Positions 4,524 through 28,155 of a stretch of DNA of 35,779 nt are shown piece after piece (the stretch's first letter is position 1; each line of letters starts with the position of its first letter). The notes below the pieces were generated by a model. That model had not been told where the DNA came from, made no database searches, and worked only from the letters and a program-made list of their open reading frames with translations. Both the position numbers and the translations under genes were made by a program. Location: the NCBI GenBank assembly GCA_947631935.1, contig CANRNG010000009.1, positions 1-35,779 of the forward strand, read 5' to 3'. This stretch comes from an uncultured Erysipelothrix sp. Its GTDB lineage: Bacteria; Bacillota_I; Bacilli_A; Erysipelotrichales; Erysipelotrichaceae.

Positions 4524-5750
4524 CTATATGTTTTGGTTATAAATTGGCTTTATATGTATCCTATTTCTATAAATTACGAGAAATGTCAGCATCAAGGTGA
4601 CCATATTGCCAAATAAAATGAGTTGCGGTGCACTCACAAAACTACCCAAAGCACCCCAAATCAATTGACCCAAGATCATACCACTCATGGTCATCATTTG
4701 GAATGTACCATTAAAACGACCCCGAATATGATTTGGAACATAGGATTGGGTGGAAGAAATTCGAATATTAAATGAAGTTACCGCAAAGAAACCAGTCATA
4801 AAATTGGTGACCAACATCAAGGGAAAAGGTAAAAACAGGGTAAACCCTTGGGTAAAAGTGATGATAATATAGACTGCCATGGCAATCTTAAATTTATGAT
4901 GGTTGGGTAGCTTAATTCGATAATGAATAAAGCCACCAATAAAGCGACCCAAAACATTGGCCGAACTCACATAGGTAAATAAGGTATAGCCCAATTTGGG
5001 ATTCGCTTTAAAATACGGCATCTCCAAAGCTTGTGAAACGGATCCTTGAAAAAGTGAGTTGATAAAGAAGTAAGTGGTGATGGCCAATAGACCAGGATTG
5101 TTGAATATGTATTGAATACCTGATTTGAATTCTTTTGAAAAATCTTCAAATTTAGAGATCTTAACTTGACCCGTCAGGTGTGATTCTTCTCTACTTAAAA
5201 AAGTCTCAAAAATACCCGCAACAAAAAACATAAATGCATTGAAGACAAACAAAACATCCAAGCCAATATGCGTATACGCAAAAGAGGCTACCGGTGTCAT
5301 GAGAGCAGCAAAAGGATAAATCATGGATGAAATAGAATAGGCTTTAGAGAAATTCCCTTTGGTGATATAAGTTGGATACAAACTATCATAAGCCACCGCA
5401 TAGATACTATCGATGGTCCCAATGGTAAATGCCAAAATCAGGAATAAAGGAAAGGTAAGGTAATTCAGTTTCAAACTGAAAAAGATCAGTAAGTAAATAA
5501 AAGCCGACAAGAAATCAAGTGTATAAATTACTTTCACCCTGGAAAAACGATCTAAAAAAGTACCTGCTATTCCCGGAACCAAAAGCTTGGGTAATGAATT
5601 TACCGCCAAGTAAACTGAAAAAGCAAAACTGGAGTCCATCATTTCCAATATAAGTACCCCCAAAGCAAACCCCGCAATCGCATTTCCAAGCATTGAAACC
5701 ACCGTTCCAAGCGTGATAATCGTAAAATCTCGTGTCCAAAGTTTCTGCAT
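4524..5750 (-). CDS. MFS transporter (exporter-type), copy 1
   Basis: A 408-residue major facilitator with about 12 hydrophobic segments. The loop after TM2 reads GTFLDRFSRVKVI, the MFS motif-A region (G-x-x-x-D-R-x-x-R). A second half-repeat reads GRFIGGFIHYRIKLP and RGRFNGTFQMM. The overall look is that of drug/siderophore-exporter-like MFS_3 or MFS_1 proteins. The ATG at 5750 follows AGGTGAGG by seven bases. It is a paralogue of the transporter at 8085-9311: both open with LWT-(R/K)-(D/N)-(F/Y) and share the same motif-A layout. It has its own promoter downstream of the murE/cofE terminator, so it is a separate transcript. The substrate is unknown. Confidence 0.85.
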   Translation of the reverse strand: MQKLWTRDFTIITLGTVVSMLGNAIAGFALGVLILEMMDSSFAFSVYLAVNSLPKLLVPGIAGTFLDRFSRVKVIYTLDFLSAFIYLLIFFSLKLNYLTFPLFLILAFTIGTIDSIYAVAYDSLYPTYITKGNFSKAYSISSMIYPFAALMTPVASFAYTHIGLDVLFVFNAFMFFVAGIFETFLSREESHLTGQVKISKFEDFSKEFKSGIQYIFNNPGLLAITTYFFINSLFQGSVSQALEMPYFKANPKLGYTLFTYVSSANVLGRFIGGFIHYRIKLPNHHKFKIAMAVYIIITFTQGFTLFLPFPLMLVTNFMTGFFAVTSFNIRISSTQSYVPNHIRGRFNGTFQMMTMSGMILGQLIWGALGSFVSAPQLILFGNMVTLMLTFLVIYRNRIHIKPIYNQNI

Positions 5751-5810: not shown

Positions 5811-5841
5811 CTTTAAAAAAGGTTGGCATTGCCTAACCTTT
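5811..5841 (-). terminator. Rho-independent terminator of murE/cofE operon
   Basis: On the minus strand AAAGGTT, a bulged A, GGC, an AAT loop and GCCAACCTTT form a hairpin followed by a T run. The hairpin begins inside the last codons of the CofE-like gene and includes its TAG stop. Confidence 0.8.
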
Positions 5842-6531
5842 CTTTCTAATTATTCCAATGGGTGTACCTTGCGCATCTTGACCCAATGGATTGTCTTTTA
5901 AAATCGCCAAAACACGATTCACATCCATCACATCACTACTACCCAAGATATTGCCACCCAAATCATTGATATCTACAATCGTGACAATCACATCTTTTTT
6001 TAAGACCTGCTTAATTTCCTTTGCGACTTTTTCTGGTTGATCTGGCCCCAATACAACATAGGTATTAAAGGGAGGCATGGTGCCAGACGTTGGCCCATCA
6101 ATGGCGCGCGCTTTACTACCCGCCACACGATAGAAGTCACCTTTACGACCCACCAATTTTCCAAGCACACTCACAAACGCTGCGAATATAATGCGCGGTG
6201 TACCACACTCTCTTAAAGCCATCTCCATGGTTTCAGGAATCCCCAAACCAATACCATGAGGTGTTTTGGTGACATAGTTAGATAACCACTTTGCCAAAGG
6301 TCGGGCTTCAACATCTTTAATTGGATAGGCACGACCTTGAGAAATTGCGACAATCTTCTCGGTGATAAATAAAATATCCCCTGATTCTAGATAAGGCGGC
6401 ACATATTCCTTCATGACCGCCAAAAGATCATCATTGGGCATAACCACATGGGTTTTAATTGGAATTCTTAAATAAGTTTCACTTCCAATATTCACTTCTA
6501 AACTCTTATTTTCATTGGCCTGTATTTTCAT
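5833..6531 (-). CDS. Divergent CofE-like (F420-0:gamma-glutamyl ligase fold) protein
   Basis: A 232-residue cytoplasmic protein. The region GDILFITEKIVAISQGR (residues 51-67) matches the conserved early strand of the F420_ligase (CofE) fold. In CofE this fold adds glutamate by gamma-linkage to coenzyme F420. The canonical C-A-N-A-G-x-D-x-S-N segment is missing; in its place is GIGLGIPETMEMALRECG (93-110), then FYRVAGSKARAIDGPTSG (133-150). This marks a distinct subgroup common in Bacillota that lack F420. No F420 biosynthesis or F420-dependent enzyme is seen in the window. The gene overlaps the upstream MurE-like gene by four bases (ATGA), so the two are co-translated and probably act in one pathway. 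An amide-bond ligase acting on a glutamate- or peptide-bearing molecule is a reasonable inference; F420 is unlikely as substrate. Confidence 0.75.
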   Translation of the reverse strand: MKIQANENKSLEVNIGSETYLRIPIKTHVVMPNDDLLAVMKEYVPPYLESGDILFITEKIVAISQGRAYPIKDVEARPLAKWLSNYVTKTPHGIGLGIPETMEMALRECGTPRIIFAAFVSVLGKLVGRKGDFYRVAGSKARAIDGPTSGTMPPFNTYVVLGPDQPEKVAKEIKQVLKKDVIVTIVDINDLGGNILGSSDVMDVNRVLAILKDNPLGQDAQGTPIGIIRKKG

Positions 6532-7976
6532 ACGAACCCTCCATTCATCATTTTTGATAATATTTCTTTAACTGCGTTATCATCCCCCATCCAGTCTTCC
6601 TTACCTGTAGGACCGTGTTGGAAACGTTCATCCCCTTTACCCAAAACAACGACCGTATCATCATCTTTGGCAATCTCTAAAGCATACTGAATGGCTTCAT
6701 AACGTTTTTCAATAAAAACATAAGGGGTATTCTTAATAAATTCTGTCATTTCTGCTTTAATTTGTAAAATATCCTCAGTGCGTCTATCTTGTTCAGTAAT
6801 CACAATCAAATCACAGAATTGATCAGAGATTTGACCCATAATGGGACGCTTGGTTTTATCACGCCCACCTGCATTACCATAGACTGCAATCAGACGCCCC
6901 TTTGTGAGATCCCTTAAATAACGATAGATTTTTTCAAACCCATCCGGTGTGTGAGAATAATCCACAATTGCTCTAAATTTTTGGCCCTTATCAATCATAT
7001 TCACACGCCCCTTCACAATTGGAAGGTCTTTTAAGGTGTCAATAATGGCTGGCAATGGATAACCATTTTGGTGGACTGAAGCAATCACTTCCAATAAGTT
7101 ATAAACATTAAACTGTGCCAACATATTGGTTGTGATGGGATAAAGGACACCCTCATGGACTAAGGTAAATCTGGATTCGGTTTCACTCAGTTTTAAATCA
7201 ATTGCACGATAATCTGCCTCTTGATCAATGGCTACTGAAACTTTATTTTGGGTATAACCCGCATCATACAAACGATTCCCATAGGGATCATCAATATTGA
7301 TGACCATCGTTCCTTCTGGCTTCAATAAGTCAAATAAATGCTTCTTCGCTAAATAATAACTTTCCATATCTGGATGATAATCCAAATGTTCTAAAGATAA
7401 ATTCGTGAAGACCACCGTATCAAAGTCCAAAGTATCAACACGCTTCAAATCCAAGCCCTGGCTGGATATTTCTAAAGCCACATTCTTTACACCATGGTCC
7501 ACCATTTCACTTAAAATTTCATGCATTTCAACCACATCCGGTGTGGTTAAAGTAGGTTCTTTAATGACATCTTGATACTCAATGGAAATCGTACCCACAT
7601 ATCCTGTATCACTACCCAAACGATTTAAAACATGACGCAGGGTACTGGTAATCGTAGATTTACCATTGGTCCCCGTAACCCCATAAACATTTAAATGTTT
7701 GGATGGATATTGATAATAAACATCTGAAACACGTTCCAACTCATGATAAACATTTTCAACCTTTATATACTCAATATTATCTTTTTTAGTTACATCTTTC
7801 GAATGTACAATCGCAACCGCACCCTTATCAATGGCTGCATCAATATAATCATGACGATCCACACTGAAGCCCTCAATACAAAAAAAGAGCGCGCCCTTGA
7901 TGACATCACGAGAATCTGTTGTTAGTTTTTTTATATTGATATCTGAGTTGATATCGAAGAGTTCTCGAAGTAACAT
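6528..7976 (-). CDS. murE: MurE-like Mur ligase (UDP-MurNAc-peptide ligase family)
   Basis: A 482-residue three-domain Mur ligase. The P-loop GVTGTNGKST is at residues 99-108. The central domain has ALEISSQGL (usually S-S-H-A-L), FTNLSLEHLDYH and the carbamylated-lysine region YYLAKKHLF. The C-terminal domain has VDYSHTPDGFEK, GNAGGRDKTKRPIMG, ITEQDRRTED and GKGDERFQ. In ordinary MurE these last two read D-N-P-R (diaminopimelate-type) or D-N-P-A/N (lysine-type), and G-K-G-H-E or similar; here QDRR and GKGDE differ, so the third-residue specificity may be unusual. The ATG at 7976 follows AGGTGG by eight bases; a GTG at 7988 is less likely. It has its own extended -10 promoter and overlaps the CofE-like gene. 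Either an unusual cell-wall MurE or a specialised paralogue. Confidence 0.85.
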   Translation of the reverse strand: MLLRELFDINSDINIKKLTTDSRDVIKGALFFCIEGFSVDRHDYIDAAIDKGAVAIVHSKDVTKKDNIEYIKVENVYHELERVSDVYYQYPSKHLNVYGVTGTNGKSTITSTLRHVLNRLGSDTGYVGTISIEYQDVIKEPTLTTPDVVEMHEILSEMVDHGVKNVALEISSQGLDLKRVDTLDFDTVVFTNLSLEHLDYHPDMESYYLAKKHLFDLLKPEGTMVINIDDPYGNRLYDAGYTQNKVSVAIDQEADYRAIDLKLSETESRFTLVHEGVLYPITTNMLAQFNVYNLLEVIASVHQNGYPLPAIIDTLKDLPIVKGRVNMIDKGQKFRAIVDYSHTPDGFEKIYRYLRDLTKGRLIAVYGNAGGRDKTKRPIMGQISDQFCDLIVITEQDRRTEDILQIKAEMTEFIKNTPYVFIEKRYEAIQYALEIAKDDDTVVVLGKGDERFQHGPTGKEDWMGDDNAVKEILSKMMNGGFV

Positions 7977-8010
7977 CGATCCTTCCACCTTTCAAAATCA
8001 TTTCTTAAAT

Positions 8011-8019
8011 ATTATACCA
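8011..8019 (-). promoter_or_regulatory. Extended -10 promoter of murE/cofE operon
   Basis: The minus strand reads TGGTATAAT (8011-8019), a perfect extended -10, about 35 bases upstream of the murE-like start. The -35 region (TTGTGT nearby) is not at a good distance. Confidence 0.6.
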
Positions 8020-8084: not shown

Positions 8085-9311
8085 TCACTTTTGTGTACTG
8101 TAATTATACAGGGTTTTAATCCCATTTTTAGAAGGCAGTATAATAACCACGATACCAAACAAATAGACAAGTTGACACAGAATCAACACCCATTCATATG
8201 GCAATCGATCTCCCAAATAACCCACTACCAATTGACCCAACATCAACGATAACGAAAATGCGATTGAGAAAAATCCGTTGACCTTTGCGCGGTGTTTAGA
8301 TTCTAAACGATGCTGAATGGCAGTGGTTCGAATGTTGGCAGAATTCATACCCAACAATCCCAACAAAAAGCGGGTCAAGCACATCAAAATAAATGGCATG
8401 AATAAAAATGTAGCATCTAACACTACAAAAATAAAGTAAACCCCAACTGCGATGATATAACGCCAGTTATCCTTAATCACAAAGAAAGAATGAATCAATC
8501 CCCCAAACATATACCCAGCAGAACCAATGGCGGTGATGATGCCATAATCATAAATTGTTAAAGTCTCTGAATTAGAGAAGAAAGGATACCAAAGATTGGA
8601 GCCAGCACTTGTGAACACCACAAAAGAAGAGAAAACAAGCACACTCACCAAGGCCCGATCTTTTTTCAAGTAAGCATAGCCTTCTTTTAAATCATGAACC
8701 AAATTGATTTTAGTATTCACAGTATCCGTATTATATACAAATTCATGCACAATATTACTTTCCACCCATACATCAATAAGGGTTAAAATCGCATATATAA
8801 AGAATAAAGTGGCCAACCCATAGCGGTGATATAAAAACAAAGCGATGGGTGCGACCAGTACTTGACACAGTGGATAAATGGTAGACATCAAAGCAAAACC
8901 CCGACTATAGTTTTCTTTTGCGATGACTTGCGCCGACACACTTTGGGAAGCTGTCTCTGAAACAATCCCAAACAAGCCAATCAACAAAATGATGAGAAGA
9001 TAGGCCCAATAAGAAAACCCATTAAAATGAACGAAAAAACCAGCAATAATAAATATGATGGCCAGCATTTTTTCATTCTTCAATAATACCTTCAGTGGGT
9101 CATGACGATCTATATAAGGACCCACAACCAAAGGAAAAAGAATATTTGGGATCATGCTGATGGCTGAAAACAGACCCGACATAAAGGTAGATTGGGTATT
9201 ATCAAAAACAACCAATCCAAACGCAATATTGAGTCCAATACCACCCAATGCAGAAATAAAGGTTCCCACAATCATTAAGATATAGTTTTTAGTCCAAAGT
9301 CTTGGTTTCAT
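8085..9311 (-). CDS. MFS transporter (exporter-type), copy 2
   Basis: A 408-residue major facilitator with about 12 hydrophobic segments. Motif A appears as GPYIDRHDPLKVLL after the second helix. The second half contains GSAGYMFGGLIHSF and the loop RLESKHRAKVNGFF, which aligns with the same loop in the paralogue at 4524-5750; both proteins have the same length. The ATG at 9311 follows GGGGAAG. A -10 TATAAT (9347-9352) with a weak TGGTCA at 17 bp lies upstream and is divergent from rsuA. The substrate is unknown. It ends 65 bases before the murE promoter, so co-transcription with that operon is possible but not shown. Confidence 0.85.
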   Translation of the reverse strand: MKPRLWTKNYILMIVGTFISALGGIGLNIAFGLVVFDNTQSTFMSGLFSAISMIPNILFPLVVGPYIDRHDPLKVLLKNEKMLAIIFIIAGFFVHFNGFSYWAYLLIILLIGLFGIVSETASQSVSAQVIAKENYSRGFALMSTIYPLCQVLVAPIALFLYHRYGLATLFFIYAILTLIDVWVESNIVHEFVYNTDTVNTKINLVHDLKEGYAYLKKDRALVSVLVFSSFVVFTSAGSNLWYPFFSNSETLTIYDYGIITAIGSAGYMFGGLIHSFFVIKDNWRYIIAVGVYFIFVVLDATFLFMPFILMCLTRFLLGLLGMNSANIRTTAIQHRLESKHRAKVNGFFSIAFSLSLMLGQLVVGYLGDRLPYEWVLILCQLVYLFGIVVIILPSKNGIKTLYNYSTQK

Positions 9312-10135: not shown

Positions 10136-10150
10136 TCCAACTCTTTTTTT
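10111..10150. terminator. Bidirectional terminator between rsuA and esterase operon
   Basis: AAAAGAG-C-TGGA and TCCA-A-CTCTTTTTTT pair around a 13-base loop, with an A run on one side and a T run on the other. It overlaps the rsuA stop and the esterase stop. Confidence 0.7.
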
Positions 10151-10901
10151 ACCAATCTTTACTGATAAACTTCAAACATTCATAAATATGGGCTGCCCAA
10201 GTTTTTTCTTCATGGGTTCCCCCTTTTGTGATCACCAACATATTCTCAACCCCAAACTTATCTAAGACTGCTTTATAAAAATGACTGGCCTCTAGATATC
10301 GTTTTGATAAATCACCCAATTGGTATCTTGAATCATCGGGTGTGCCTTCAGAGTCACCTACCTGAATGTAAACACGCTGAGACGAATCCACATTTTCAAA
10401 AAGAGCTTCAAAATCTTTTTGAAAGACCCAAGATGCCAGTGAAAAGACTCCCAAATGACCCAATCTATCAGGGTATTGATATCCCAAATAAGCAGTGATG
10501 ACACCACCCAATGAACTACCAATCATCGCTGTATGTTTTTTATCTGTTTTCGTGGGATAGTGTTTATCAATATGGGGTTTTACAGTGTCAAAAATAAAAG
10601 CACCGTAAGCATCCCCTTCACCCCCACGCTTCATCTTATCCAAAAAAGGACTTCCCTTCATCTTCCAAGGCGCATAGGTATCCATACGACGATCGCCTTC
10701 ATTATCAATGGCTACCACAATCATTTTGGGAAGATCTTTTGTTTCTAAGTTTTCAATAACACGCCACGAATGGCCAGAAAAAGAAGTTTTATCATAAAAA
10801 ACATTTTGACCATCATGAAAGTATACAACCGGATATCTTTGCGTCTTATCCTCAGGATAAAGTACTGTAACTGTGATATCTTTTAGCTTAAAACGATCCA
10901 T
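10149..10901 (-). CDS. Alpha/beta hydrolase, putative esterase (esterase D type)
   Basis: A 250-residue alpha/beta hydrolase without a signal peptide. YPVVYFHDGQNVFYD (residues 23-37) provides the strand and oxyanion region typical of the PF00756 esterase family. GSSLGG (128-133) is the nucleophile elbow with S130, and GGTHEEKTW near the C-terminus carries the likely catalytic histidine. Family members include S-formylglutathione hydrolases and siderophore or feruloyl esterases; the substrate here is unknown. I chose the ATG at 10901, one base after the stop of the acetyltransferase gene; a TTG at 10916 would overlap it. It is the last gene of a four-gene operon. Confidence 0.82.
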   Translation of the reverse strand: MDRFKLKDITVTVLYPEDKTQRYPVVYFHDGQNVFYDKTSFSGHSWRVIENLETKDLPKMIVVAIDNEGDRRMDTYAPWKMKGSPFLDKMKRGGEGDAYGAFIFDTVKPHIDKHYPTKTDKKHTAMIGSSLGGVITAYLGYQYPDRLGHLGVFSLASWVFQKDFEALFENVDSSQRVYIQVGDSEGTPDDSRYQLGDLSKRYLEASHFYKAVLDKFGVENMLVITKGGTHEEKTWAAHIYECLKFISKDW

Positions 10902-10902
10902 T

Positions 10903-11496
10903 TCATACTGTCTCAATTAAATCACCCAACTTATCTGCTTCAGTTATTTTTCTTAAAATACGAATTGGATTCCCAACCGCAATCACATTATCAGGAATAT
11001 CTTTATTGACCAACGACTTCGCTCCAATAACCACATTTTTACCGATGGTGACACCCCCTAAAACTGTCACATCCGCCCCAATCCAAGTATTATCGCCCAC
11101 TGTAATGCCACTTGCTTGTTCAAGCCCGCGATTTCTTTCACTGGCATCTAAAGCATGATTGGCTGTATAAAATCCTGTGTTGGGTCCAATGAACACATGC
11201 TTTCCAATAGTGATTTTACCCCCATCCATAAAATAAACATTGTGATTTATAAAAGAATAATCTTTGATAACGGTGTTAAACCCATAATCAAAATACACCG
11301 GCGATAAGACTGTCACTGCTTCCCCCAAATTGTGCACCAACTGTTTCAAAATCGCCAATCTTTCACTTGTTTTCGAAGGTCTCATATTATTATAGTCAAA
11401 GCATAATTCATCGGCTATGGCCCTTTTTTCAACTATTTCAGCATCATAATTGGCATCATACCACTTACCTTGAAGCATTTTATCAAATTCACGCAT
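10903..11496 (-). CDS. Maltose/galactoside-type O-acetyltransferase
   Basis: A 197-residue left-handed beta-helix acetyltransferase. The N-terminal MLQGKWYDANYDAEIVEKR is the Maa/LacA cap domain, followed by hexapeptide repeats (ITIGKHVFIG, ITVGDNTWIGADVTVLGGVTIGKNVVIGAKSLV). The catalytic histidine lies in TANHALD. Such enzymes use acetyl-CoA to acetylate sugars such as maltose, glucose or galactosides. It overlaps the amidase gene by eight bases upstream and is one base from the esterase downstream. Pairing an acetyltransferase with an esterase in one operon suggests an acetylated intermediate or detoxified product, but this is inference. Confidence 0.87.
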   Translation of the reverse strand: MREFDKMLQGKWYDANYDAEIVEKRAIADELCFDYNNMRPSKTSERLAILKQLVHNLGEAVTVLSPVYFDYGFNTVIKDYSFINHNVYFMDGGKITIGKHVFIGPNTGFYTANHALDASERNRGLEQASGITVGDNTWIGADVTVLGGVTIGKNVVIGAKSLVNKDIPDNVIAVGNPIRILRKITEADKLGDLIETV

Positions 11497-12868
11497 ATAT
11501 TGTCCTCGCTAATTCTAAGATAAAGACATCACTGCCTTTGGGTCCCATGATTTGGACCCCCATTTTTTCACCCTGTTCATTGGTATAAATGGGTAAAGAC
11601 AAGGCGGGTTGTCCCGTAATATTGGCCAACATTGTAAAAGGTGTATAGGACAGTGATTTTTCAAACATCGTCCAAACCACTTCATACGGATTGGGATCTG
11701 TCTCAATGGCTGCCATCCTTTTTAATAAGGCTTCATCTTGGTATTTTAAATCAAAATCTGGAGCCGGTTTCGCATTGGTTGGCAATAAATATAAATCATA
11801 AGTTTGATGAAATTCATGCATCGTTTCAGAAACCATGTCCCAGTAATTTAAAGCATCTACCACTTCATACCCTTTTATTTTTAAACCATATTGGTAAAGA
11901 ACCCATGATACCAGTTCAATGTCATCCATTGTGACATCATTCTTTATTCCTTTAATCATGGCAGCTGTTTCTACCCCATTCACAAGGTAGTACGATTCCA
12001 TCAGTTTCATACCATCATAAACAGGCGCCACATTTACCAAGGTATGACCCATGGATTCTAATTTCTCCACCAGCAAATGTAATGCTTTTTTAGCATCGTC
12101 TGAAACTTCTGAATTGACAGGTGAGATATCAGAATATGCAATGGTTAATTTCTTTTTTTGAATAGGCATACTGACATAATTAAAGGGGGCTTCTATTGTG
12201 TTTTGATACATGTGTTTAAACAACAATTCAGCATCTGCCACTGTCTTTGTGATAAAGAAGTTAATTGAGGCTCCTTGCCATCCGCGATGGCCATTGGGGC
12301 CCGTAGGCATGGCACCGCGTGTGGGTTTAAATCCCACCAACCCACCATAAGCAGCAGGAATACGAATGGACCCACCCCCATCACTGGCCGCAACAACAGG
12401 CACATAATCCGCCACCAAAGCAGCTGCAGCGCCACCTGAAGAACCGCCGATGGTTTTCTTTAAATTTAAGGGATGCTTTACATGACCATAAAGCTTGGAA
12501 TCAGAAATATTCTTAAATCCAAATTCAGGGGTATTGGTTTGACCCAAAACAATAAAGCCCAGTGATTGTAACTTTTCAACAAAGTTATGGGTTGAACTAG
12601 AAACAACATCTTTTAAAAGTACTGATCCTGCAGTTGAAGGCATGCCCTCAATGTTTTGACCCAATGCTTTAATTAAGATGGGAATACCCTTAAATACCGT
12701 TTGAGAATAATCTTGTTTTGATTCCTCTAAAGCAGCTTCAAAGCGTGTATGGACCACCGCATTGATTTGATTGTCTTTTGCTTGGATGGTTTCAATCGAT
12801 TTTAAAACCAATTCAGTCGGGGTTATCTTACCCGACGCCAATTTGTCTATAATCTCTTGTAGATTCAT
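11489..12868 (-). CDS. Amidase signature family hydrolase
   Basis: A 459-residue amidase with the Ser-cisSer-Lys triad visible: K67 in GIPILIKALG, the cis-serine in GGSSGGAAAA (141-150), and the nucleophile S167 in SDGGGSIRIPAA. The family includes the GatA subunit and many stand-alone amidases. The lack of gatB and gatC nearby and the catabolic-looking neighbours argue for an independent amidase acting on a small amide or acylated amine. The start at 12868 is one base after the stop of the flavoprotein gene; the last codons overlap the acetyltransferase start. Confidence 0.87.
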   Translation of the reverse strand: MNLQEIIDKLASGKITPTELVLKSIETIQAKDNQINAVVHTRFEAALEESKQDYSQTVFKGIPILIKALGQNIEGMPSTAGSVLLKDVVSSSTHNFVEKLQSLGFIVLGQTNTPEFGFKNISDSKLYGHVKHPLNLKKTIGGSSGGAAAALVADYVPVVAASDGGGSIRIPAAYGGLVGFKPTRGAMPTGPNGHRGWQGASINFFITKTVADAELLFKHMYQNTIEAPFNYVSMPIQKKKLTIAYSDISPVNSEVSDDAKKALHLLVEKLESMGHTLVNVAPVYDGMKLMESYYLVNGVETAAMIKGIKNDVTMDDIELVSWVLYQYGLKIKGYEVVDALNYWDMVSETMHEFHQTYDLYLLPTNAKPAPDFDLKYQDEALLKRMAAIETDPNPYEVVWTMFEKSLSYTPFTMLANITGQPALSLPIYTNEQGEKMGVQIMGPKGSDVFILELARTIYA

Positions 12869-12869
12869 T

Positions 12870-14009
12870 TTATTTCTCTATAGGACCCACTAAAACATTG
12901 GCCCATCCATTGTGTAAAGATTCTTGATCAGAAGGTTGGAAGAGTCCTGCATGCACATCGCGTAAGAGTCTTGATAATTCATGGGTATTATAATAACTCA
13001 TCCCACCACTGGCACGCACAATCTCATTAACCGCATGCATCGATGCCTCTACTGAAGTATTCTTTACAGCACTGAGTTTTGGCATCCACAACATGCCATG
13101 ATCATAACCACTTTCGAATTGATCACTGAGGCCATCAATTTGGTAGGATACTGCATCTTGTCTGATGGCTGCATCTGCAATGCGCCAACGAATATCTTTA
13201 TCGTTGGAATAAGTTGTATTATTCGCGACTGATTTACGTTTTTTAACGACTTCTACACCAATTTCAATGGCACGATTTCCGATACCATGATACGTAGCTG
13301 CCAGTAAAATTTCAAAATAACCAAAGATACCAAAAACCACTGGATCATAAGAAGGACCCGGTTTAACTTTTGTTAAAATACGCTCTTTTGGCGCATACGC
13401 ATCATTTAAAAGGACATTATTGGACTGGGTTGCACGCATTCCCAACGCATTCCAATTATCATCCGCAATGACAGTCTTTTTATCGTTATCTATATACGCA
13501 AAAACAGACATTGGACCCTGTGGTGTTTCTTCTTGTCCATAGGTCACAAGCCGTGTACATTGGTTCACCATGGAGATAAACACTTTACGACCCTTGAAAA
13601 GATAACCCCCGTCTTCTTGTTTATGGGCGGTTGTTGTTGATCCAAAAAGAACCCGATCATTGGCAGGTTCAGAAATCCCAAAGGCCAACAGTTCCCCATT
13701 TACCGCATCCTTCAGAATTTGTTCACCGGCAAGATTGCCGTTTTTAACCATATATTTGGCCATCCCTACAATAATTTGGTGCATGTTAATACCCAAAGCA
13801 GTCCCAGGAGCAGCCTGAGCCAAACGGGTTTGTTCATGGGCAATTTCTTTTAGTGACAAGCCAAAACCACCATATTCTTTGGGAACTTGGGCTTTAAAAT
13901 AGCCTGCTTCTTTTAAAAGCGCATAATCCTCATCTGGGAATCGATTATCCAAATCAACTTGGTGTGCATTTTCGTGAATTTGCTTTAAAATTGCTTCGCT
14001 TAAAAACAT
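12870..14009 (-). CDS. Acyl-CoA dehydrogenase-fold flavoprotein, atypical active site
   Basis: A 379-residue protein of the acyl-CoA dehydrogenase superfamily. The N-terminal helical domain includes VPKEYGGFGLSLKEIA; the middle domain has FGISEPAND, FKGRKVFISMVN and NALGMRATQSNNV; the C-terminal helical domain ends in a GGMSYYNTHELSRLLRDVHA helix. The usual terminal Tyr-Glu-Gly-Thr with the catalytic glutamate is replaced by GLFQPSDQES, as in flavin-dependent oxidases or monooxygenases of this fold (DszC/SfnB-like). No CoA ligase, thiolase or electron-transfer flavoprotein gene is nearby, so ordinary beta-oxidation is unlikely. The ATG at 14009 follows AAGGAGG. It is the first gene of the operon. 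Confidence 0.82.
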   Translation of the reverse strand: MFLSEAILKQIHENAHQVDLDNRFPDEDYALLKEAGYFKAQVPKEYGGFGLSLKEIAHEQTRLAQAAPGTALGINMHQIIVGMAKYMVKNGNLAGEQILKDAVNGELLAFGISEPANDRVLFGSTTTAHKQEDGGYLFKGRKVFISMVNQCTRLVTYGQEETPQGPMSVFAYIDNDKKTVIADDNWNALGMRATQSNNVLLNDAYAPKERILTKVKPGPSYDPVVFGIFGYFEILLAATYHGIGNRAIEIGVEVVKKRKSVANNTTYSNDKDIRWRIADAAIRQDAVSYQIDGLSDQFESGYDHGMLWMPKLSAVKNTSVEASMHAVNEIVRASGGMSYYNTHELSRLLRDVHAGLFQPSDQESLHNGWANVLVGPIEK

Positions 14010-14060
14010 AAAAACCTCCTTATTTTATCTTCTTAATTTTATCATAGATTCATCTTTAAT

Positions 14061-14092
14061 GAAAAAGTTGAACCCTAAAGCTCAACTATTTT
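14061..14092. terminator. Bidirectional-looking terminator after the histidine phosphatase gene
   Basis: AGTTGA and TCAACT pair (14066-14087) with T-rich sequence on both sides. On the minus strand it follows and partly overlaps the end of the phosphatase gene, so it separates that gene from the flavoprotein operon. Confidence 0.6.
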
Positions 14093-14694
14093 TTACGTTT
14101 AATGGGTTCATAATTATTTAAAGTAATATAATTATTAGCCACATCAAATTCAATATCCAAGACATACCCCAAACCATTGGGAGTGTCAATATTATAATAC
14201 TGTTCAAATGACAAAGGTTTTAAAAACATGATAAAGGTTTTGATAACCCCTGAATGACAAACAATGGTCACAGAGTCTTCACCTGCTTCTTGCATTTCTC
14301 TAAGAACCGCTGTGAGTTTACCCAAGAGTCTCATACTAACTTGAGACACGGTTTCACCCGCAACATGGGGTTGATTTCGAATATAAGCCTCGTTATAGGG
14401 AATGCCAGGAACACGATCCCATCTCACATTCTCATATTCACCAAAGTTAATCTCCCTAAAAGCAAAGGTTGATTCAGTAATGGGTGTGTTCTCTCCATAA
14501 AGTAATTTAAAGGTATCAATCGTACGGGTTAAATCCGATGTATAATAGCGATCTGTCTTAGGATATTCATGGGTTTTGCGATATGCTTTTAACTCCTCAA
14601 TCCCTTTATCACTCAACATCGTATTACTCCAACCTGTGTATAAGCCTTGGTCGTTTCCGACGGTATAACCATGTCGCACTAATACTAATTTCAT
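14086..14694 (-). CDS. Histidine phosphatase (phosphoglycerate-mutase-like)
   Basis: A 202-residue histidine phosphatase. The phosphorylated histidine is in LVRHGYT (H8), arginines lie in SDLTRTIDT, the acidic residue in FREINFGEYE, and the second histidine in IVCHSGV. At about 200 residues it fits phosphatases such as PhoE/CobC/YhfR rather than the 230-250-residue glycolytic mutase. The substrate is unknown. The ATG at 14694 follows GAGGAAAG by five bases; a longer reading from 14709 has no support. Confidence 0.85.
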   Translation of the reverse strand: MKLVLVRHGYTVGNDQGLYTGWSNTMLSDKGIEELKAYRKTHEYPKTDRYYTSDLTRTIDTFKLLYGENTPITESTFAFREINFGEYENVRWDRVPGIPYNEAYIRNQPHVAGETVSQVSMRLLGKLTAVLREMQEAGEDSVTIVCHSGVIKTFIMFLKPLSFEQYYNIDTPNGLGYVLDIEFDVANNYITLNNYEPIKRKK

Positions 14695-14715
14695 AGATCT
14701 TTCCTCCATGGCTTA

Positions 14716-14744
14716 ATCGTATCTAAATTATCAACTTTTCGCAA
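14716..14744 (-). promoter_or_regulatory. Possible promoter of histidine phosphatase gene
   Basis: On the minus strand TTGCGA (14739-14744), a 17-bp spacer and TACGAT (14716-14721) give four of six matches for each element. Confidence 0.35.
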
Positions 14745-14754
14745 GCAATACAAT

Positions 14755-14780
14755 AAAAAAGACTGCAAGGCAGCCTTTTA
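14755..14780 (-). terminator. Rho-independent terminator of APC/M20 operon
   Basis: On the minus strand AGGCTGC, CTT and GCAGTCT form a 7-bp stem with one mismatch, followed by TTTTTT. It comes just after the short reading frame at 14784-14894. Confidence 0.75.
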
Positions 14781-14783
14781 ACA

Positions 14784-14894
14784 TTAGTCTTCAAATTCAA
14801 AGGTTTCAATACCATGAACCGGAGGCAATGGAAGTAATCCCGCTTTATATGCTTTTGCGAGTTTTACAGGAATTTTTAGATCTTTTTGAATCCA
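14784..14894 (-). other. Orphan reading frame after the M20 stop, possibly a frameshifted small protein
   Basis: After the M20 amidohydrolase stop (TAG 14901-14903) come TGA and TAA in the same frame. The frame then stays open for 36 codons to a TAA at 14784-14786, just before the terminator. It encodes DLKIPVKLAKAYKAGLLP and PLPPVHGIETFEFED, a sequence that looks like real protein. There is no in-frame ATG. An ATG at 14896 in the adjacent frame would enter this frame if one A were removed from the AAAAA run (14884-14891 region), giving a 36-residue protein. It may be a frameshifted small gene, a remnant, or a sequencing error. No homologue is recognised. Confidence 0.35.
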
Positions 14895-14900
14895 TTATCA

Positions 14901-16082
14901 CTATCTGAGGTCCAGTGCATTAAATAAAGCGATTCCCACTGTCTTAGCGGCAATCAATAAGGCATCCTCATGAATATCAAACTTGGGATGGTGGTGTGGG
15001 TAGTTGGTAAGATTGGGTTGTGCTCCAATATAGAAATAACAACAAGGTAAGGCATTGCTAAAATGCGCAAAGTCCTCAGAAACACTCACCATACCACAAT
15101 CTTGAATTTGGGTAACTTCATCAATATTTGCCTCTTCAATTGCAGCAATCGTACTTCTTGTGAGCTTTGGATCATTATAAAGCGCAGGGCAATCATTTGA
15201 ATACGCCAAATCAATTTTGACATGATACATGGTTTCAATACCATCACAAATGGCACGCATTTCACGCTCTACCAATTCACTGTTCTCTTGCGAGAACATT
15301 CTGACGTCCCCTTCCAAAGTCACTGAGTCTTTGATGATGTTAAATTGTCCCTTGCCATCCAAAGATCCAACCGTTAAAACAACCACATCCATGGGGTTGG
15401 TGCGACGGCTCACTATGGTTTGAAGATTTACCACCAAAGCAGATGCAGCCAAAAGTGCATCATGGGTTACATGAGGATAAGCACCATGGCCTCCCAAACC
15501 TTGAACTTTGATATCAAACTTGGCACGTGCAGCTTGGGTAGGTCCTTCATGGTATTCCACAATCCCTAAAGGCACTTGACCACTAAAGTGAATGCCCAAA
15601 ACATGATCGACCCCTTCTAATACCCCATCTTCAATCATGGCAATCGCACCGCCTGGTGGAACTTCTTCTGCAGGTTGATGGATGATCACAATTTTTCCAG
15701 TTAAATCGGCCTTCATTTCAATTAAACTCTCAGCCAAACCCATCATATAGCCCGTATGACCATCATGACCACAGGCGTGCATAACCCCTTTATTTTTAGA
15801 AGCAAAAGACAAGCCCGTATCTTCTTCAATAGGTAAAGCGTCAAAGTCAGCTCTTAGAGCAATGGTTTTTCCAGGTTTACCCGAATCAATGGTAACTTTA
15901 ATCCCATAGCCCCCCACATTGGCTTGTACCAATACATCTTTATCCTTGTAGAAATCAAGGATGTATTGACTTGTTTGTTTTTCTTCAAATGATAATTCAG
16001 GATACATATGTAGATGACGACGATGTGCAACCATCATATCCTTTTTAGATTCCAATAAGGCGAATAATCTTTCTTTCATCAT
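14901..16082 (-). CDS. M20-family metal-dependent amidohydrolase
   Basis: A 393-residue M20 peptidase/amidohydrolase. The motifs are RRHLHMYPELSFEE, ALRADFDALPIEED, HACGHDGHTGYM (metal ligands C104 and H106), HQPAEEVPPGGA and GLGGHGAYPH (dimerisation domain), and SEDFAHFS. This is the M20D group, including N-acyl-L-amino acid, indole-acetyl amino acid and hippurate hydrolases. The ATG at 16082 follows GGAGG by eight bases. It begins 49 bases after the end of the APC transporter gene, so the pair probably imports and cleaves an amino acid conjugate or peptide. Three stop codons in a row end the gene. Confidence 0.88.
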   Translation of the reverse strand: MMKERLFALLESKKDMMVAHRRHLHMYPELSFEEKQTSQYILDFYKDKDVLVQANVGGYGIKVTIDSGKPGKTIALRADFDALPIEEDTGLSFASKNKGVMHACGHDGHTGYMMGLAESLIEMKADLTGKIVIIHQPAEEVPPGGAIAMIEDGVLEGVDHVLGIHFSGQVPLGIVEYHEGPTQAARAKFDIKVQGLGGHGAYPHVTHDALLAASALVVNLQTIVSRRTNPMDVVVLTVGSLDGKGQFNIIKDSVTLEGDVRMFSQENSELVEREMRAICDGIETMYHVKIDLAYSNDCPALYNDPKLTRSTIAAIEEANIDEVTQIQDCGMVSVSEDFAHFSNALPCCYFYIGAQPNLTNYPHHHPKFDIHEDALLIAAKTVGIALFNALDLR

Positions 16083-16131
16083 GCTTAAAACCTCCATAAA
16101 CAAATTATATCATAAAAGAAAAAAGAAGCTG

Positions 16132-17460
16132 TTAAATCTCCTTTTGTTTGGGGCGAATTATAAGGCCCAGCCCAATGCCCATAAATGAGAGTAAAAAGTA
16201 GACCAAAGCATTGTCTTGAGACATGCCACCATAAATCACCAAGAATGCGCCCAACGTTGCCATCACCGGCAGTAATATTTTTAGATATTTTTGGGTTTTA
16301 AATAAAATATCGATCAATCTAAAATAAAGACTCAAATAAAAGAAATACGTTAATACGATGGGAATCGCATCAATCTCAAAGCCTGAGAAATTAATAAAGC
16401 CAGATGAAATTTTAAACTGACTCAAAGCATGTAAACCCAACCAAAGCATGATCAATATAAAACATAGAATCGCTGAATTAATAGAAATATTATATTTATT
16501 ATCCAAAGTTTTAAAGTGATGGCTCATGGGTAAATCGTCTCGAATCGCCAAAGCATAGGGCATCCTAATATATCCCAAAACCAAACCATTCACTGAACCC
16601 AAAACAGAAATGATCACCGTAATATAGACGGCCTTGGTTCCAAAATCACCCAGGAAATGATTCACAATATAACCCACAGAACCATCGCCCAATGCCATGA
16701 TGGTTTCAGGACCCAAAATAAAGTTAATGCCTATAAAATACGTTAGGTAGATACATAAAATTAAAACAGGAGAGAAAATCAAGGCCAAGGGCAAGTCTCT
16801 TTTAGGGTTTTTAAGTTCATGGGCAATCGAAGGTGCGACAAACCAACCATCATACGCAAACGCACATGCTACCAATCCCGCAAAGAGCTGCGGCGACTTA
16901 TCGGTAATGGGTTGCATCGTAAAATTAACAGGATCTCCAAAAAATATACCCACTACAGACAAAAGAATGAGTGCTGTTAACTTAACGATTAAACTTAAAT
17001 TTTGAAAACGAGACGCCCACATCGTTTGAAATATATTTAATACAAAGATACCCACCAGACTCAAAATCGTAATCAGCCAAATTCTATAATCCAAGGGGTT
17101 TTGAATCCCAAACAACAAACCCACATAAATAGAAGACACAAACGCTAAGATTGCTGAAATCGCAGGAAAGTAAAAGGATACCTGAAACCACCCGGCAAGA
17201 TAGCCCCAGGCTTTACCCCAAGCCATTTCACAATACGTAATCAATCCCCCCGCTTCATTATTTCTCTTCGCATATTCACTCACACAAAGACCCCCGAAAA
17301 TAATACCCACGGCACCCACAACCCACAGTAAAACACCGCTTAAAACCGAACCTGAAGTCGCAAATAAAATATCATCTGTTTTAAAGAAGATGCCCGATCC
17401 AATTACGATGCCTGCAATCATAGAGACAGCCGTAAAAAGACCAAATTTTTCTTTTTTCAT
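16132..17460 (-). CDS. APC-family amino acid permease/exchanger
   Basis: A 442-residue transporter with about 12 hydrophobic helices. The unwound TM1 motif IVIGSGIFF (residues 18-26) and the E-x-x-G-G-L-I-x-Y motif in NNEAGGLITYCEMAWG identify the APC superfamily, closest in look to the LAT-like group that includes the SteT serine/threonine exchanger and YfnA. The substrate is unknown. It lies 41 bases downstream of the ABC-F gene and 49 bases upstream of the M20 hydrolase, all on the same strand; a link with the hydrolase is more plausible than with the ABC-F protein. Confidence 0.85.
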   Translation of the reverse strand: MKKEKFGLFTAVSMIAGIVIGSGIFFKTDDILFATSGSVLSGVLLWVVGAVGIIFGGLCVSEYAKRNNEAGGLITYCEMAWGKAWGYLAGWFQVSFYFPAISAILAFVSSIYVGLLFGIQNPLDYRIWLITILSLVGIFVLNIFQTMWASRFQNLSLIVKLTALILLSVVGIFFGDPVNFTMQPITDKSPQLFAGLVACAFAYDGWFVAPSIAHELKNPKRDLPLALIFSPVLILCIYLTYFIGINFILGPETIMALGDGSVGYIVNHFLGDFGTKAVYITVIISVLGSVNGLVLGYIRMPYALAIRDDLPMSHHFKTLDNKYNISINSAILCFILIMLWLGLHALSQFKISSGFINFSGFEIDAIPIVLTYFFYLSLYFRLIDILFKTQKYLKILLPVMATLGAFLVIYGGMSQDNALVYFLLSFMGIGLGLIIRPKQKEI

Positions 17461-17501
17461 AAGTATACCTACGTTTCTTGAAAATAATCTATTTTAGTAT
17501 A

Positions 17502-18890
17502 CTAGAATTCTGCTACTTCTAAAAGATTAAAATCATTTATTTCATAGATGCGGTTGGCCACATTATTTATAAAAGTCATATCATGGGTAACGAAAATGAC
17601 GGTTCCCATGTAATTTTTAATCAAGGATTCCAATGCTTCAATTGCGAATACATCCATATAATTCGTGGGCTCATCCAATAATAAAATATTATAGCGAGAC
17701 AAAAGTAACTTAGCCAAACGCATCTTCATGCGCTCTCCACCACTTAATACAGAAAGTTTTTTAGTGATGGCAAGCGCATCTATATTTAAAGATGCCAAAA
17801 CAGCACGAATTTCAGATATTTGGTAGATTGAATCTTCCTTCATAAACTCTATAATCGTCTGATCTAAATTTTGAATATCCTCTTGTTGTGAAAAATAACC
17901 AATCTTTGCCTTGGGAGAGATCGTAAATGTATCTTCCATAATCATCTTAAATAAAGTGGACTTACCTGAACCATTGGGACCTATAATCGCAATCTTCTCG
18001 CCCAATTTGAATTGGAAGGTGAGTTTTTTAAAGATGATACGATCTCCATATGCCTTATCCACCCCTTCACTCATAATGGGATATGGATTGTGCAATTCAA
18101 TTTCTTTAGAAAGTCTGAAATTAATGATGGGCGTTTTTGTATCTAGGGTTACATCCTCCATGTGTTCCAAACGCTTTTCAATGGATTTGGATGCTTTATG
18201 AAGAGACTTTTGTTTGCTGCCCATGGATTTTTCAAAAGCGAGCCTACCACCGCCTTTGGTGTTGTTTTTCTTAAGGCTGGCTTTATGTCTTCGCTCCATC
18301 CTGATCGCATTATCACGTTTTTTCAAAGCCGCTTGTTCCAGTCTGTTTTTCTCTTTTTGAATATTTTCATAGGCCTGTTGCTTGCTTTTTCTTTCCACAT
18401 CCTTGGCTTGAATATAATCTGAATAATTTCCCCAATATTCCACAATCTTTCCTTCTTTGAGTTCCCATATTTTGTGTACTGTCTCATCTAAAAAATTACG
18501 ATCATGACTGATCACCACGATAAAACCCGGATAGTACTTAAAGCTATCAATGAGATCTTGGATTCCATCTTGGTCCAAATGACTCGTGGGTTCATCTGCG
18601 AAAAGGCCATGGGTATGAGTGTTGATTTGTTTATTCATTTCAGCTCGGGTTATTTCCCCACCACTCAAGGTTGTATCTTTGTAATCTCGTTGTTGTGGCA
18701 TATAAGAAAAAGTCCCGAAATGCTGAGCAGATGTAGACATTAAATATTTCAGTAAAGTGGTTTTTCCACTCCCGTTTTGTCCTACAATCCCAATGCGATC
18801 ATAATCATAAATCTCCAAAGATTCGATGTCCAGTATTGTTTTATTGTGATATTCAACATAAATTTGTTGTGCTTTAACTCTTAAAGTCAT
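17502..18890 (-). CDS. Antibiotic-resistance-type ABC-F ribosome protection ATPase
   Basis: A 462-residue soluble protein with two ATPase domains and no membrane helix. NBD1 has P-loop GQNGSGKTT (37-45), Q-loop MPQQ (64-67), then LSGGE (75-79) almost at once, and Walker B LFADEPTSHLD. The very short NBD1 arm and A-D-E-P-T are hallmarks of the Vga/Lsa/VmlR branch. A charged linker of about 100 residues (KSKQQAYENIQKEKNRLEQ onward) forms the arm that reaches the peptidyl-transferase centre. NBD2 has GPNGSGKST, LSGGERMKMRLAKLLL and LLLDEPTNYMD. Such proteins displace lincosamide, streptogramin A, pleuromutilin or macrolide antibiotics; the drug range cannot be told from sequence. GGAGG precedes the ATG. 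The leader upstream carries an attenuator and a leader peptide, which supports drug-induced expression. Confidence 0.85.
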   Translation of the reverse strand: MTLRVKAQQIYVEYHNKTILDIESLEIYDYDRIGIVGQNGSGKTTLLKYLMSTSAQHFGTFSYMPQQRDYKDTTLSGGEITRAEMNKQINTHTHGLFADEPTSHLDQDGIQDLIDSFKYYPGFIVVISHDRNFLDETVHKIWELKEGKIVEYWGNYSDYIQAKDVERKSKQQAYENIQKEKNRLEQAALKKRDNAIRMERRHKASLKKNNTKGGGRLAFEKSMGSKQKSLHKASKSIEKRLEHMEDVTLDTKTPIINFRLSKEIELHNPYPIMSEGVDKAYGDRIIFKKLTFQFKLGEKIAIIGPNGSGKSTLFKMIMEDTFTISPKAKIGYFSQQEDIQNLDQTIIEFMKEDSIYQISEIRAVLASLNIDALAITKKLSVLSGGERMKMRLAKLLLSRYNILLLDEPTNYMDVFAIEALESLIKNYMGTVIFVTHDMTFINNVANRIYEINDFNLLEVAEF

Positions 18891-19129: not shown

Positions 19130-19846
19130 ATGGTTAAATTCGGAGACTATATTACACCTTTTCACTGGGATCATTTTATTTATATCATTGCACTCCTCAT
19201 TTTAGCGCTGGCATTATTTCGATATCGTGAGGTTATTTTCAAACACCGCTATCTTGCCGCTAATATAATTTTAGTTGTCGCCATTTGTCAACAAATAATG
19301 CTTTATGGCAGTTACCTATTTTTGATGCGATTCAATCTCAGCGAATCACTGCCCTTTCAAATCAATCGCATCAGTTCTATCTTGGTAATTGTTTATCTCT
19401 TTACTAAAAATGAACAAGTTCTCAGTGTTGTCTCATATTTTGGGGCCTATGCTTGGTTTTCATTTCTATATCCAATTCGGGTCTATGGGGTACTCCACCC
19501 CATTGGTATTTCTTTTTTTGTGGGTCATGCCTTAACACTACTTTTACCCTACTTTGGCATCCTTGCATTCAATACCAGTTACTATAAAAACGGCAGAAAT
19601 TTTGCCTTCCTATATTTGATAGGTTATACCTTGCTTTGCGTCATTATCAACCCATTGGTTGATGGCAATTATTTCTATTTAAAAAACAAACCACTTGTGG
19701 GCGAGATGCAGGACTTTCCATACATAATCATCGTTTTATTACTTTCTTATGGCGGATTTTGGGTTATGGAAAAGTACTATCTTCGGGTTTCACAATACTT
19801 CATTAATAAAAATAACACCCATCCATGGGTTGAACCAAAACGATAA
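19130..19846 (+). CDS. TMEM164/YwaF-type integral membrane protein 1
   Basis: A 238-residue membrane protein with about six to seven hydrophobic helices. The segment ESLPFQINRISSILVIVYLF (residues 72-91) and the later GHALTLLLPYFGILAF match the TIGR02206/YwaF family, related to eukaryotic TMEM164. The bacterial function is not established, and lipid-linked acyl transfer is only suggested by the eukaryotic relative. AAAGGGG precedes the ATG. The next gene starts 18 bases downstream, so the two are co-transcribed. A second family member lies at 27412-28155. Confidence 0.75.
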   Translation: MVKFGDYITPFHWDHFIYIIALLILALALFRYREVIFKHRYLAANIILVVAICQQIMLYGSYLFLMRFNLSESLPFQINRISSILVIVYLFTKNEQVLSVVSYFGAYAWFSFLYPIRVYGVLHPIGISFFVGHALTLLLPYFGILAFNTSYYKNGRNFAFLYLIGYTLLCVIINPLVDGNYFYLKNKPLVGEMQDFPYIIIVLLLSYGGFWVMEKYYLRVSQYFINKNNTHPWVEPKR

Positions 19847-27411: not shown

Positions 27412-28155
27412 TTGGAAGACTTTTTTAAAACAATCGATCAACAAGGAGGTCGGATCCCTTTTGAAATATTTGGGACTGTACACCTCACATGGCTACTGGC
27501 CATATTTATAGGTAACTTAATACTCATTCAAATTTATAAAAAATTATCCACGCATCAGCGTAATCTTTTTAGGAAATACTTTGTAACCTTAATCTTCTTT
27601 TTAGAATATTCCCGAAGACTACTCCTCATCTTTATGGGTGCGTTCACCTTTGAAGATGTCCCCTTACACTTATGCTCAATTGGAATTGTGCTTTGTTTTA
27701 TCCATGCATTTAAACCAACACAGCTCCTAGACGATGCTTTATTTATGTTGGTCCTACCAGGTGCCTTAGCCGCTTTATTATTTCCCGATTGGAACACACC
27801 GATTCATTTTAATTACTTTTACATCCACAGTTGGGTTATCCACGGTTTGATGGTGGCCTATGTTTCAGTCTTATTGACAAGCGGCGAATTAATTCCCAAC
27901 CGAAAGAACTTGCTGTATATCTTCGGTGGTCTGGGTTTATTTGCAATTCCCATTTACGCTATCAATAAATTATGGAATACCAATTTCTTATTTATCAATA
28001 CACCCTCTCCGGGTTCCCCTTTGGTTTTCTTAGAATCAATCTTCGGAAACCCTGGCTATATCTTTGGACTATTAGCACTGGTACTCATGGTATGGACAAT
28101 CATGTATTGGGTTGATGGGTCTTTGAGATATTTTAAAAAAAGTGATCCAATGTGA
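27412..28155 (+). CDS. TMEM164/YwaF-type integral membrane protein 2
   Basis: A 247-residue membrane protein with about six to seven helices. EDVPLHLCSIGIVLCFIHAF (residues 81-100), with the P-L-H-L-C-S-I signature, identifies the TIGR02206/YwaF family, and WVIHGLMVAYVSVLL provides the second conserved His. It keeps the canonical H-L-C-S motif, whereas the paralogue at 19130 has Q-I-N-R at the same place. The start is a TTG at 27412 after AGGG; no in-frame ATG is upstream. It is a single-gene transcript ending in a bidirectional terminator. Confidence 0.8.
   Translation: MEDFFKTIDQQGGRIPFEIFGTVHLTWLLAIFIGNLILIQIYKKLSTHQRNLFRKYFVTLIFFLEYSRRLLLIFMGAFTFEDVPLHLCSIGIVLCFIHAFKPTQLLDDALFMLVLPGALAALLFPDWNTPIHFNYFYIHSWVIHGLMVAYVSVLLTSGELIPNRKNLLYIFGGLGLFAIPIYAINKLWNTNFLFINTPSPGSPLVFLESIFGNPGYIFGLLALVLMVWTIMYWVDGSLRYFKKSDPM

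Follow-up and report, generated by a model that had tools for sequence, protein, structure and literature searches.

The closest described systems to the locus analysed here are the MurE ligases and the F420-0:gamma-glutamyl ligase CofE of Archaeoglobus fulgidus (2PHN, 7ULD), an enzyme whose chemistry couples an amino acid, through its amine, to a carboxylate that it activates (PMC10861534). The S. aureus MurE holds the epsilon-amine of Lys with Glu-460 and the leading Asp of its DNPA motif, and with the exchange D406A kcat/Km drops from 8.787 to 0.001, an approximately 8,800-fold reduction in the use of Lys (PMC3829189); in T. maritima MurE the motif reads DDPR (PMC9434261). For E. rhusiopathiae, Ala at stem position 3 and a wall containing Lys as well as Gly were reported, the wording being D-Ala at position 3 with murE called an L-alanine ligase (PMC9637936). 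Among bacterial relatives of CofE, Chlamydia CT611 acts as FolC in a host without F420 (PMC1971073), and QimC of Streptococcus pyogenes is a CofE-fold protein from an operon tied to cell-wall modification (PMC13059722).

The murE locus of an uncultured Erysipelothrix species

We analysed a contig stretch of 35,779 nucleotides from an uncultured Erysipelothrix sp. (the window), in which murE overlaps a gene encoding a CofE-like protein. The features of the locus are:

8085-9311, minus strand: MFS transporter (Pfam), neighbour, by pairwise comparison a paralogue of the one at 4524-5750
8019-8011, minus strand: extended -10 element TGGTATAAT upstream of murE, recognised by eye
6528-7988, minus strand: murE, 486 aa, GTG start, with Mur ligase N-terminal, middle and C-terminal domains (Pfam)
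6780-6791, minus strand: Q-D-R-R codons of murE, placed by alignment to S. aureus and T. maritima MurE
6528-6531, minus strand: ATGA overlap of the murE stop and the CofE-like start, within ...GGTTCGTATGAAAATACAG...
5833-6531, minus strand: CofE-like gene, 232 aa, CofE-fold ligase of a putative non-F420 clade
6088-6126, minus strand: VAGSKARAIDGPT segment of the CofE-like protein, with G138, D145 and G146 invariant in 50 relatives
5941-5973, minus strand: DINDLGGNILG segment of the CofE-like protein, with D187, N189 and D190 invariant in 50 relatives
5815-5844, minus strand: hairpin and U-run 3' of the CofE-like stop, likely terminator
4524-5750, minus strand: MFS transporter (Pfam), neighbour

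Both open reading frames, the ATGA overlap and the motifs QDRR, GKGDE, SSQGL and VAGSKARAIDGPT were found where an earlier sequence-only reading had placed them, and the overlap likely results in translational coupling. The terminator proposed behind the pair corresponds to the hairpin with U-run (-14.2 kcal/mol, z -2.3). The extended -10 element is not among the hits of our consensus scan, which returned 38 hits in total compared to a shuffle mean of 24.8, a modest excess. The flanking MFS proteins are paralogous as claimed (27% identity, E 5e-42); we found no functional tie of these exporters to murE and the CofE-like gene, and they are just neighbours. Further upstream, the region 10149-18890 (minus strand) holds a run of genes for an esterase, a sugar acetyltransferase-like protein, an amidase, an acyl-CoA dehydrogenase-like protein, a histidine phosphatase, an amidohydrolase, an amino-acid permease and an ABC-F ribosome-protection-like protein, the latter scoring 536 bits with the Msr family model, below its cut-off of 680. 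Two TMEM164-family membrane proteins are encoded within the 36 kb, at 19130-19846 and 27412-28155.

The window MurE reaches 458.8 bits with TIGR01085 (cut-off 257.3) and is homologous over its full length to the enzymes of S. aureus (4C12/4C13), T. maritima (4BUB) and E. coli (1E8C). The search for a second canonical murE, which the sequence-only reading had proposed, returned no further MurE-grade match in the genome (1.56 Mb, 98% complete), so that the window murE, as the only one, is a housekeeping gene. Genes murD, mraY and murF lie on other contigs, which agrees with E. rhusiopathiae, where mur genes are likewise described as scattered (PMC9637936). As a separate observation, most genomes of the group f2 carry two MurE homologues each; the homologue nearer to the window MurE, read in one of them (L061), has TGSSGKT and an altered motif L-D-D-R and is possibly a non-standard MurE.

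The Q-D-R-R of the window MurE aligns to DNPA of the S. aureus and DDPR of the T. maritima enzyme, showing that the specificity motif is indeed altered: the Asp at position 1 of DNPA/DNPR/DDPR, the amine ligand of Lys- or DAP-specific MurE enzymes, is replaced by Gln. Among the 13 Erysipelothrix-genus genomes, 11 have His and 2 have Gln here, and the 16 other genomes of the family that were read all have Asp. The Arg at position 4 is shared with the DAP and T. maritima enzymes. Of the motifs pointed out as unusual only the QDRR position stands out, as all 13 MurEs of the genus have SSQGL and GKGDE recurs in most of the family's other genera. That the Asp is lost throughout the genus agrees with the report of Ala as third stem residue in E. 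rhusiopathiae, and because the amine-binding Asp is gone, residue 3 is probably small, e.g. L-Ala, instead of Lys or DAP. On this sequence basis we consider the window MurE as probably Ala-type; counting against this, it keeps the Glu of GKGxE, as do all MurEs surveyed. If residue 3 lacks a side-chain amine, cross-linking has to proceed through D-Glu. Cross-linking via D-Glu is what characterises group B peptidoglycan, as in the B1-delta type.

A two-way check covering 141 other CofE-like loci and, among relatives, 29 murE loci revealed no murE in the former and no CofE-like gene in the latter. In other Erysipelothrix genomes the CofE-like gene is located among unrelated genes and murE elsewhere; the genome with the closest MurE relative (G009; 66% identical, sharing QDRR; 84% complete) has no CofE-like gene beside murE, and none was found elsewhere in it. 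This negative outcome identifies the overlap as a lineage-specific arrangement, the murE-adjacent position being peculiar to the window species within the sets examined. Most of what the sequence-only reading had listed as counting against a functional pair was thus found, i.e. a sole murE and a neighbourhood that is not conserved, and the pair does not stand as a unit; its statement that both folds are amide-forming carboxylate ligases holds. The idea that murE and the CofE-like gene make up a two-enzyme pathway of their own off the cell wall, with the product exported by the flanking MFS proteins, draws on the overlapping genes and the paralogous MFS genes on both sides, but is largely refuted by murE being the only one in the genome and by the pairing being absent from all of these loci, and we give it next to no credence.

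Fold and family of the CofE-like protein

The CofE-like protein belongs to the PF01996 (F420_ligase) superfamily, scoring 49.1 bits at a cut-off of 25. Its AlphaFold model (pLDDT 92.4) matches the CofE structures 2PHN and 7ULD with a Z-score of 14.9 and an rmsd of 3.1 over 183 residues (2PHN_B), and Foldseek returned CofE with an E-value of 1.4e-8, so the fold is common over most of the chain. On the level of sequence the likeness is reduced to a weak profile similarity in an N-terminal GD(I/V)L block and at a D(I/T)N position, at approximately 21% identity: a PDB search with the single protein returned nothing relevant, and a profile search retrieved CofE only at an E-value of 0.31.

The shared fold could suggest a true F420-0:glutamate ligase. 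Against this, the protein stays below every equivalog cut-off, with 27.6 bits for TIGR01916 (180.65), 22.6 for PRK13293 (274) and 18.6 for PRK13294 (304), which sets it apart from the curated F420 ligases. As the sequence-only reading had noted, the canonical CofE middle segment is absent with VAGSKARAIDGPT in its place, and neither this segment, containing KARAIDGPT, nor the C-terminal DNPLGQ..TP block is of CofE type; such conserved blocks, particular to the protein and its relatives, mark out a clade apart from CofE. No F420 genes were seen among the window ORFs scanned, and the carriers of the CofE-like gene are without known F420 production. An activity as F420 ligase is hardly credible in view of these differences.

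A second possibility is that the protein substitutes for folylpolyglutamate synthase and has no role in the wall, as the Chlamydia CofE homologue CT611 complements an E. coli folC mutant (PMC1971073). Chlamydiae are without folC, whereas the window genome encodes an ordinary FolC (G000:C4:44313-45428; 355.9 bits, cut-off 162.65), which argues against the CofE-like protein being a stand-in. FolC is also present in almost every relative, whether or not the CofE-like gene occurs there, and the folate-type NCBIfam model yields 22.2 at a cut-off of 350. We rejected FolC substitution, which appears very improbable.

In 50 relatives, K59, G110, G131, F133, Y134, G138, D145 and G146 as well as D187, N189, D190, N214, P215, T223 and P224 are invariant, suggesting that the protein is under a catalytic-type constraint. 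Our comparisons place it in a distinct, putatively non-F420 clade of the CofE fold with conserved blocks of its own.

Distribution, partner gene and transfer of the CofE-like clade

The CofE-like gene is present in 15 of 60 relatives, in 11 of the 13 Erysipelothrix-genus genomes, in 9 of 392 genomes of the phylum sample, in 28 of 341 of the class of Lutispora and in 31 of 200 Microbacteriaceae (28 close and 3 distant). The order of Microbacterium gave 37 matches in 297 genomes, 27 of which lie in long open frames; nine of ten long frames fetched carry the CofE-like domain at the C-terminal end of 800-960 aa, both frames scanned against Pfam are AsnB-CofE fusions, and the fusions form one clade (support 100/100). 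At L155:5647-8307, L162:5681-8482 and other Actinomycetales loci the CofE-like domain follows an AsnB-type asparagine synthase; in fusions of this type the N-terminal MCGI and SGGLDSS are intact and the Pfam F420_ligase model misses the fused domain.

The gene neighbourhoods differ between lineages. In Microbacteriaceae the gene adjoins an rpoD-like gene and one or two ATPgrasp_ST genes, and in Lutispora-like Clostridia (L118, L130, L173-L180, L182) murB follows it directly, within a murB-PHP-rapZ-yvcK-like neighbourhood, and a gene for a solute-binding protein comes before it. DUF1846 and purB-like genes are further neighbours, and in two Clostridia (L184, L189) an MBOAT O-acyltransferase gene adjoins it. 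Searches for plasmid matches, viral contig matches and viral structures gave none, none and nothing convincing, respectively, and we rejected plasmid-borne or viral spread.

Within the same 200 Microbacteriaceae, the ATP-grasp gene occurs in 26 of the 28 carriers of a close CofE-like homologue compared to 11 of the 172 others (Fisher p of about 1e-21, which is not a true probability as the genomes are related). The ATP-grasp gene also neighbours the CofE-like gene in the Clostridial locus L186 and in an Erysipelotrichaceae MAG (L026), and is absent from the window genome and from G009. At L026:11152-12225 an octopine/nopaline-dehydrogenase-like gene overlaps the ATP-grasp gene beside the CofE-like gene, a CHAP-domain protein being encoded upstream. 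A PDB sequence search with the ATP-grasp protein returned nothing; its predicted structure resembles the ligases LysX, ArgX, RimK and Ddl with Z-scores of up to 14.6.

In the CofE-like tree, Erysipelothrix together with MAG L026 groups with Microbacteriaceae (support 99/97), apart from other Erysipelotrichaceae and Clostridia. In the ATP-grasp tree most Erysipelothrix copies likewise group with Microbacteriaceae (99/98) and apart from their nearer kin, three Erysipelothrix copies forming a second group. These topologies indicate that the CofE-like gene was passed between Erysipelothrix and Microbacteriaceae. Both genes are neighbours in Microbacteriaceae and unlinked in Erysipelothrix; the same inter-phylum link of two genes unlinked in Erysipelothrix suggests that their products work together. 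Erysipelothrix has group-B peptidoglycan. Group-B peptidoglycan is also found, and is general, in Microbacteriaceae (PMC11319209, PMC4156110), and it is a trait common to both lineages.

Both enzymes might act elsewhere, making a small amide or peptide or modifying a surface polysaccharide without a role in peptidoglycan, the murE overlap being due to chance. The varied neighbourhoods, i.e. rpoD in Microbacteriaceae and DUF1846, purB-like and MBOAT genes elsewhere, would agree with this, as would the name of the partner's Pfam family ('sugar-transfer associated'), the resemblance of the fused AsnB to, among others, a dipeptide-amide (N-acetylglutaminylglutamine) amidotransferase and the lack of the CofE-like gene in most Microbacteriaceae. 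However, no glycosyltransferase is encoded beside the Erysipelothrix ATP-grasp genes read, and it would be left unexplained why both carriers sharing the two genes by transfer are group-B lineages. We regard such a role as a serious contender falling somewhat short of probable.

A candidate role in group-B cell walls

For the locus itself, we favour as the probable explanation a housekeeping MurE with an altered pocket and a non-F420 CofE-fold ligase, juxtaposed in this lineage only. MurE would add stem residue 3, probably a small one such as L-Ala. The CofE-fold protein would be a metal- and nucleotide-dependent ligase forming the acyl phosphate of a carboxylate and joining an amino acid to it; fold, invariant residues and the failed family cut-offs suggest a substrate other than F420-0. 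Its gene would have come to lie behind murE in the window lineage only, where both are now probably co-translated.

As a further step, the CofE-like protein might act as the group-B ligase adding the first bridge residue, e.g. Gly, to the free alpha-carboxyl of the stem D-Glu of a peptidoglycan precursor, with the ATP-grasp ligase (ATPgrasp_ST) adding the second bridge residue in most relatives. In other Actinomycetales the AsnB fusion would amidate the added residue, so that D-Glu would carry, for example, glycinamide. In the window species the CofE-like gene would be co-translated with a MurE no longer installing a diamino acid, cross-linking proceeding via D-Glu. This is our leading proposal for the function, unproven and held tentatively, at a probability we would call low. 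CofE chemistry runs in the same direction as group-B bridge growth from D-Glu, and in some species Gly or D-Ser is known to be attached to the alpha-carboxylate of D-Glu (PMC11555704). If the proposal holds, the protein would act on the same carboxyl group as MurT/GatD, which amidates the D-Glu alpha-carboxyl but is composed of a Mur ligase and a glutaminase of other families and adds ammonia instead of an amino acid (PMC12632261).

The tree link of both genes, the co-occurrence in Microbacteriaceae, the AsnB fusions and the murB adjacency speak for the bridge-ligase proposal. Against it, 172 of the 200 Microbacteriaceae have no close homologue although type-B peptidoglycan is general there; the CofE-like gene was not found in G011, a genome of the same genus whose MurE motif is similar; the ATP-grasp partner is absent from both the window genome and G009; and several Erysipelotrichaceae with a DDPR-type MurE carry the gene (G017, G032). 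One way out is that the CofE-like gene is a mark of bridges in which Gly adjoins D-Glu. A general group-B enzyme for all Microbacteriaceae is not supported, the gene being present in only 31 of the 200.

As a summary, the window MurE has an ordinary role and an interesting pocket, and the transfer pattern of the CofE-like gene links it in a testable way to group-B walls. We know of no enzyme assigned so far to group-B cross-bridge formation, and the shared transfer of the CofE-like and ATP-grasp genes provides two concrete candidates. Loss of the amine-holding Asp across the genus offers a marker, simple to read from sequence, of MurE enzymes whose added residue may lack a side-chain amine. 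The clade extends over Bacillota and Actinomycetota, and its members, which the PF01996 name would label as F420 ligases, should not be annotated as such. This little-studied CofE-like family may help to build the unusual walls of Erysipelothrix and Microbacteriaceae.
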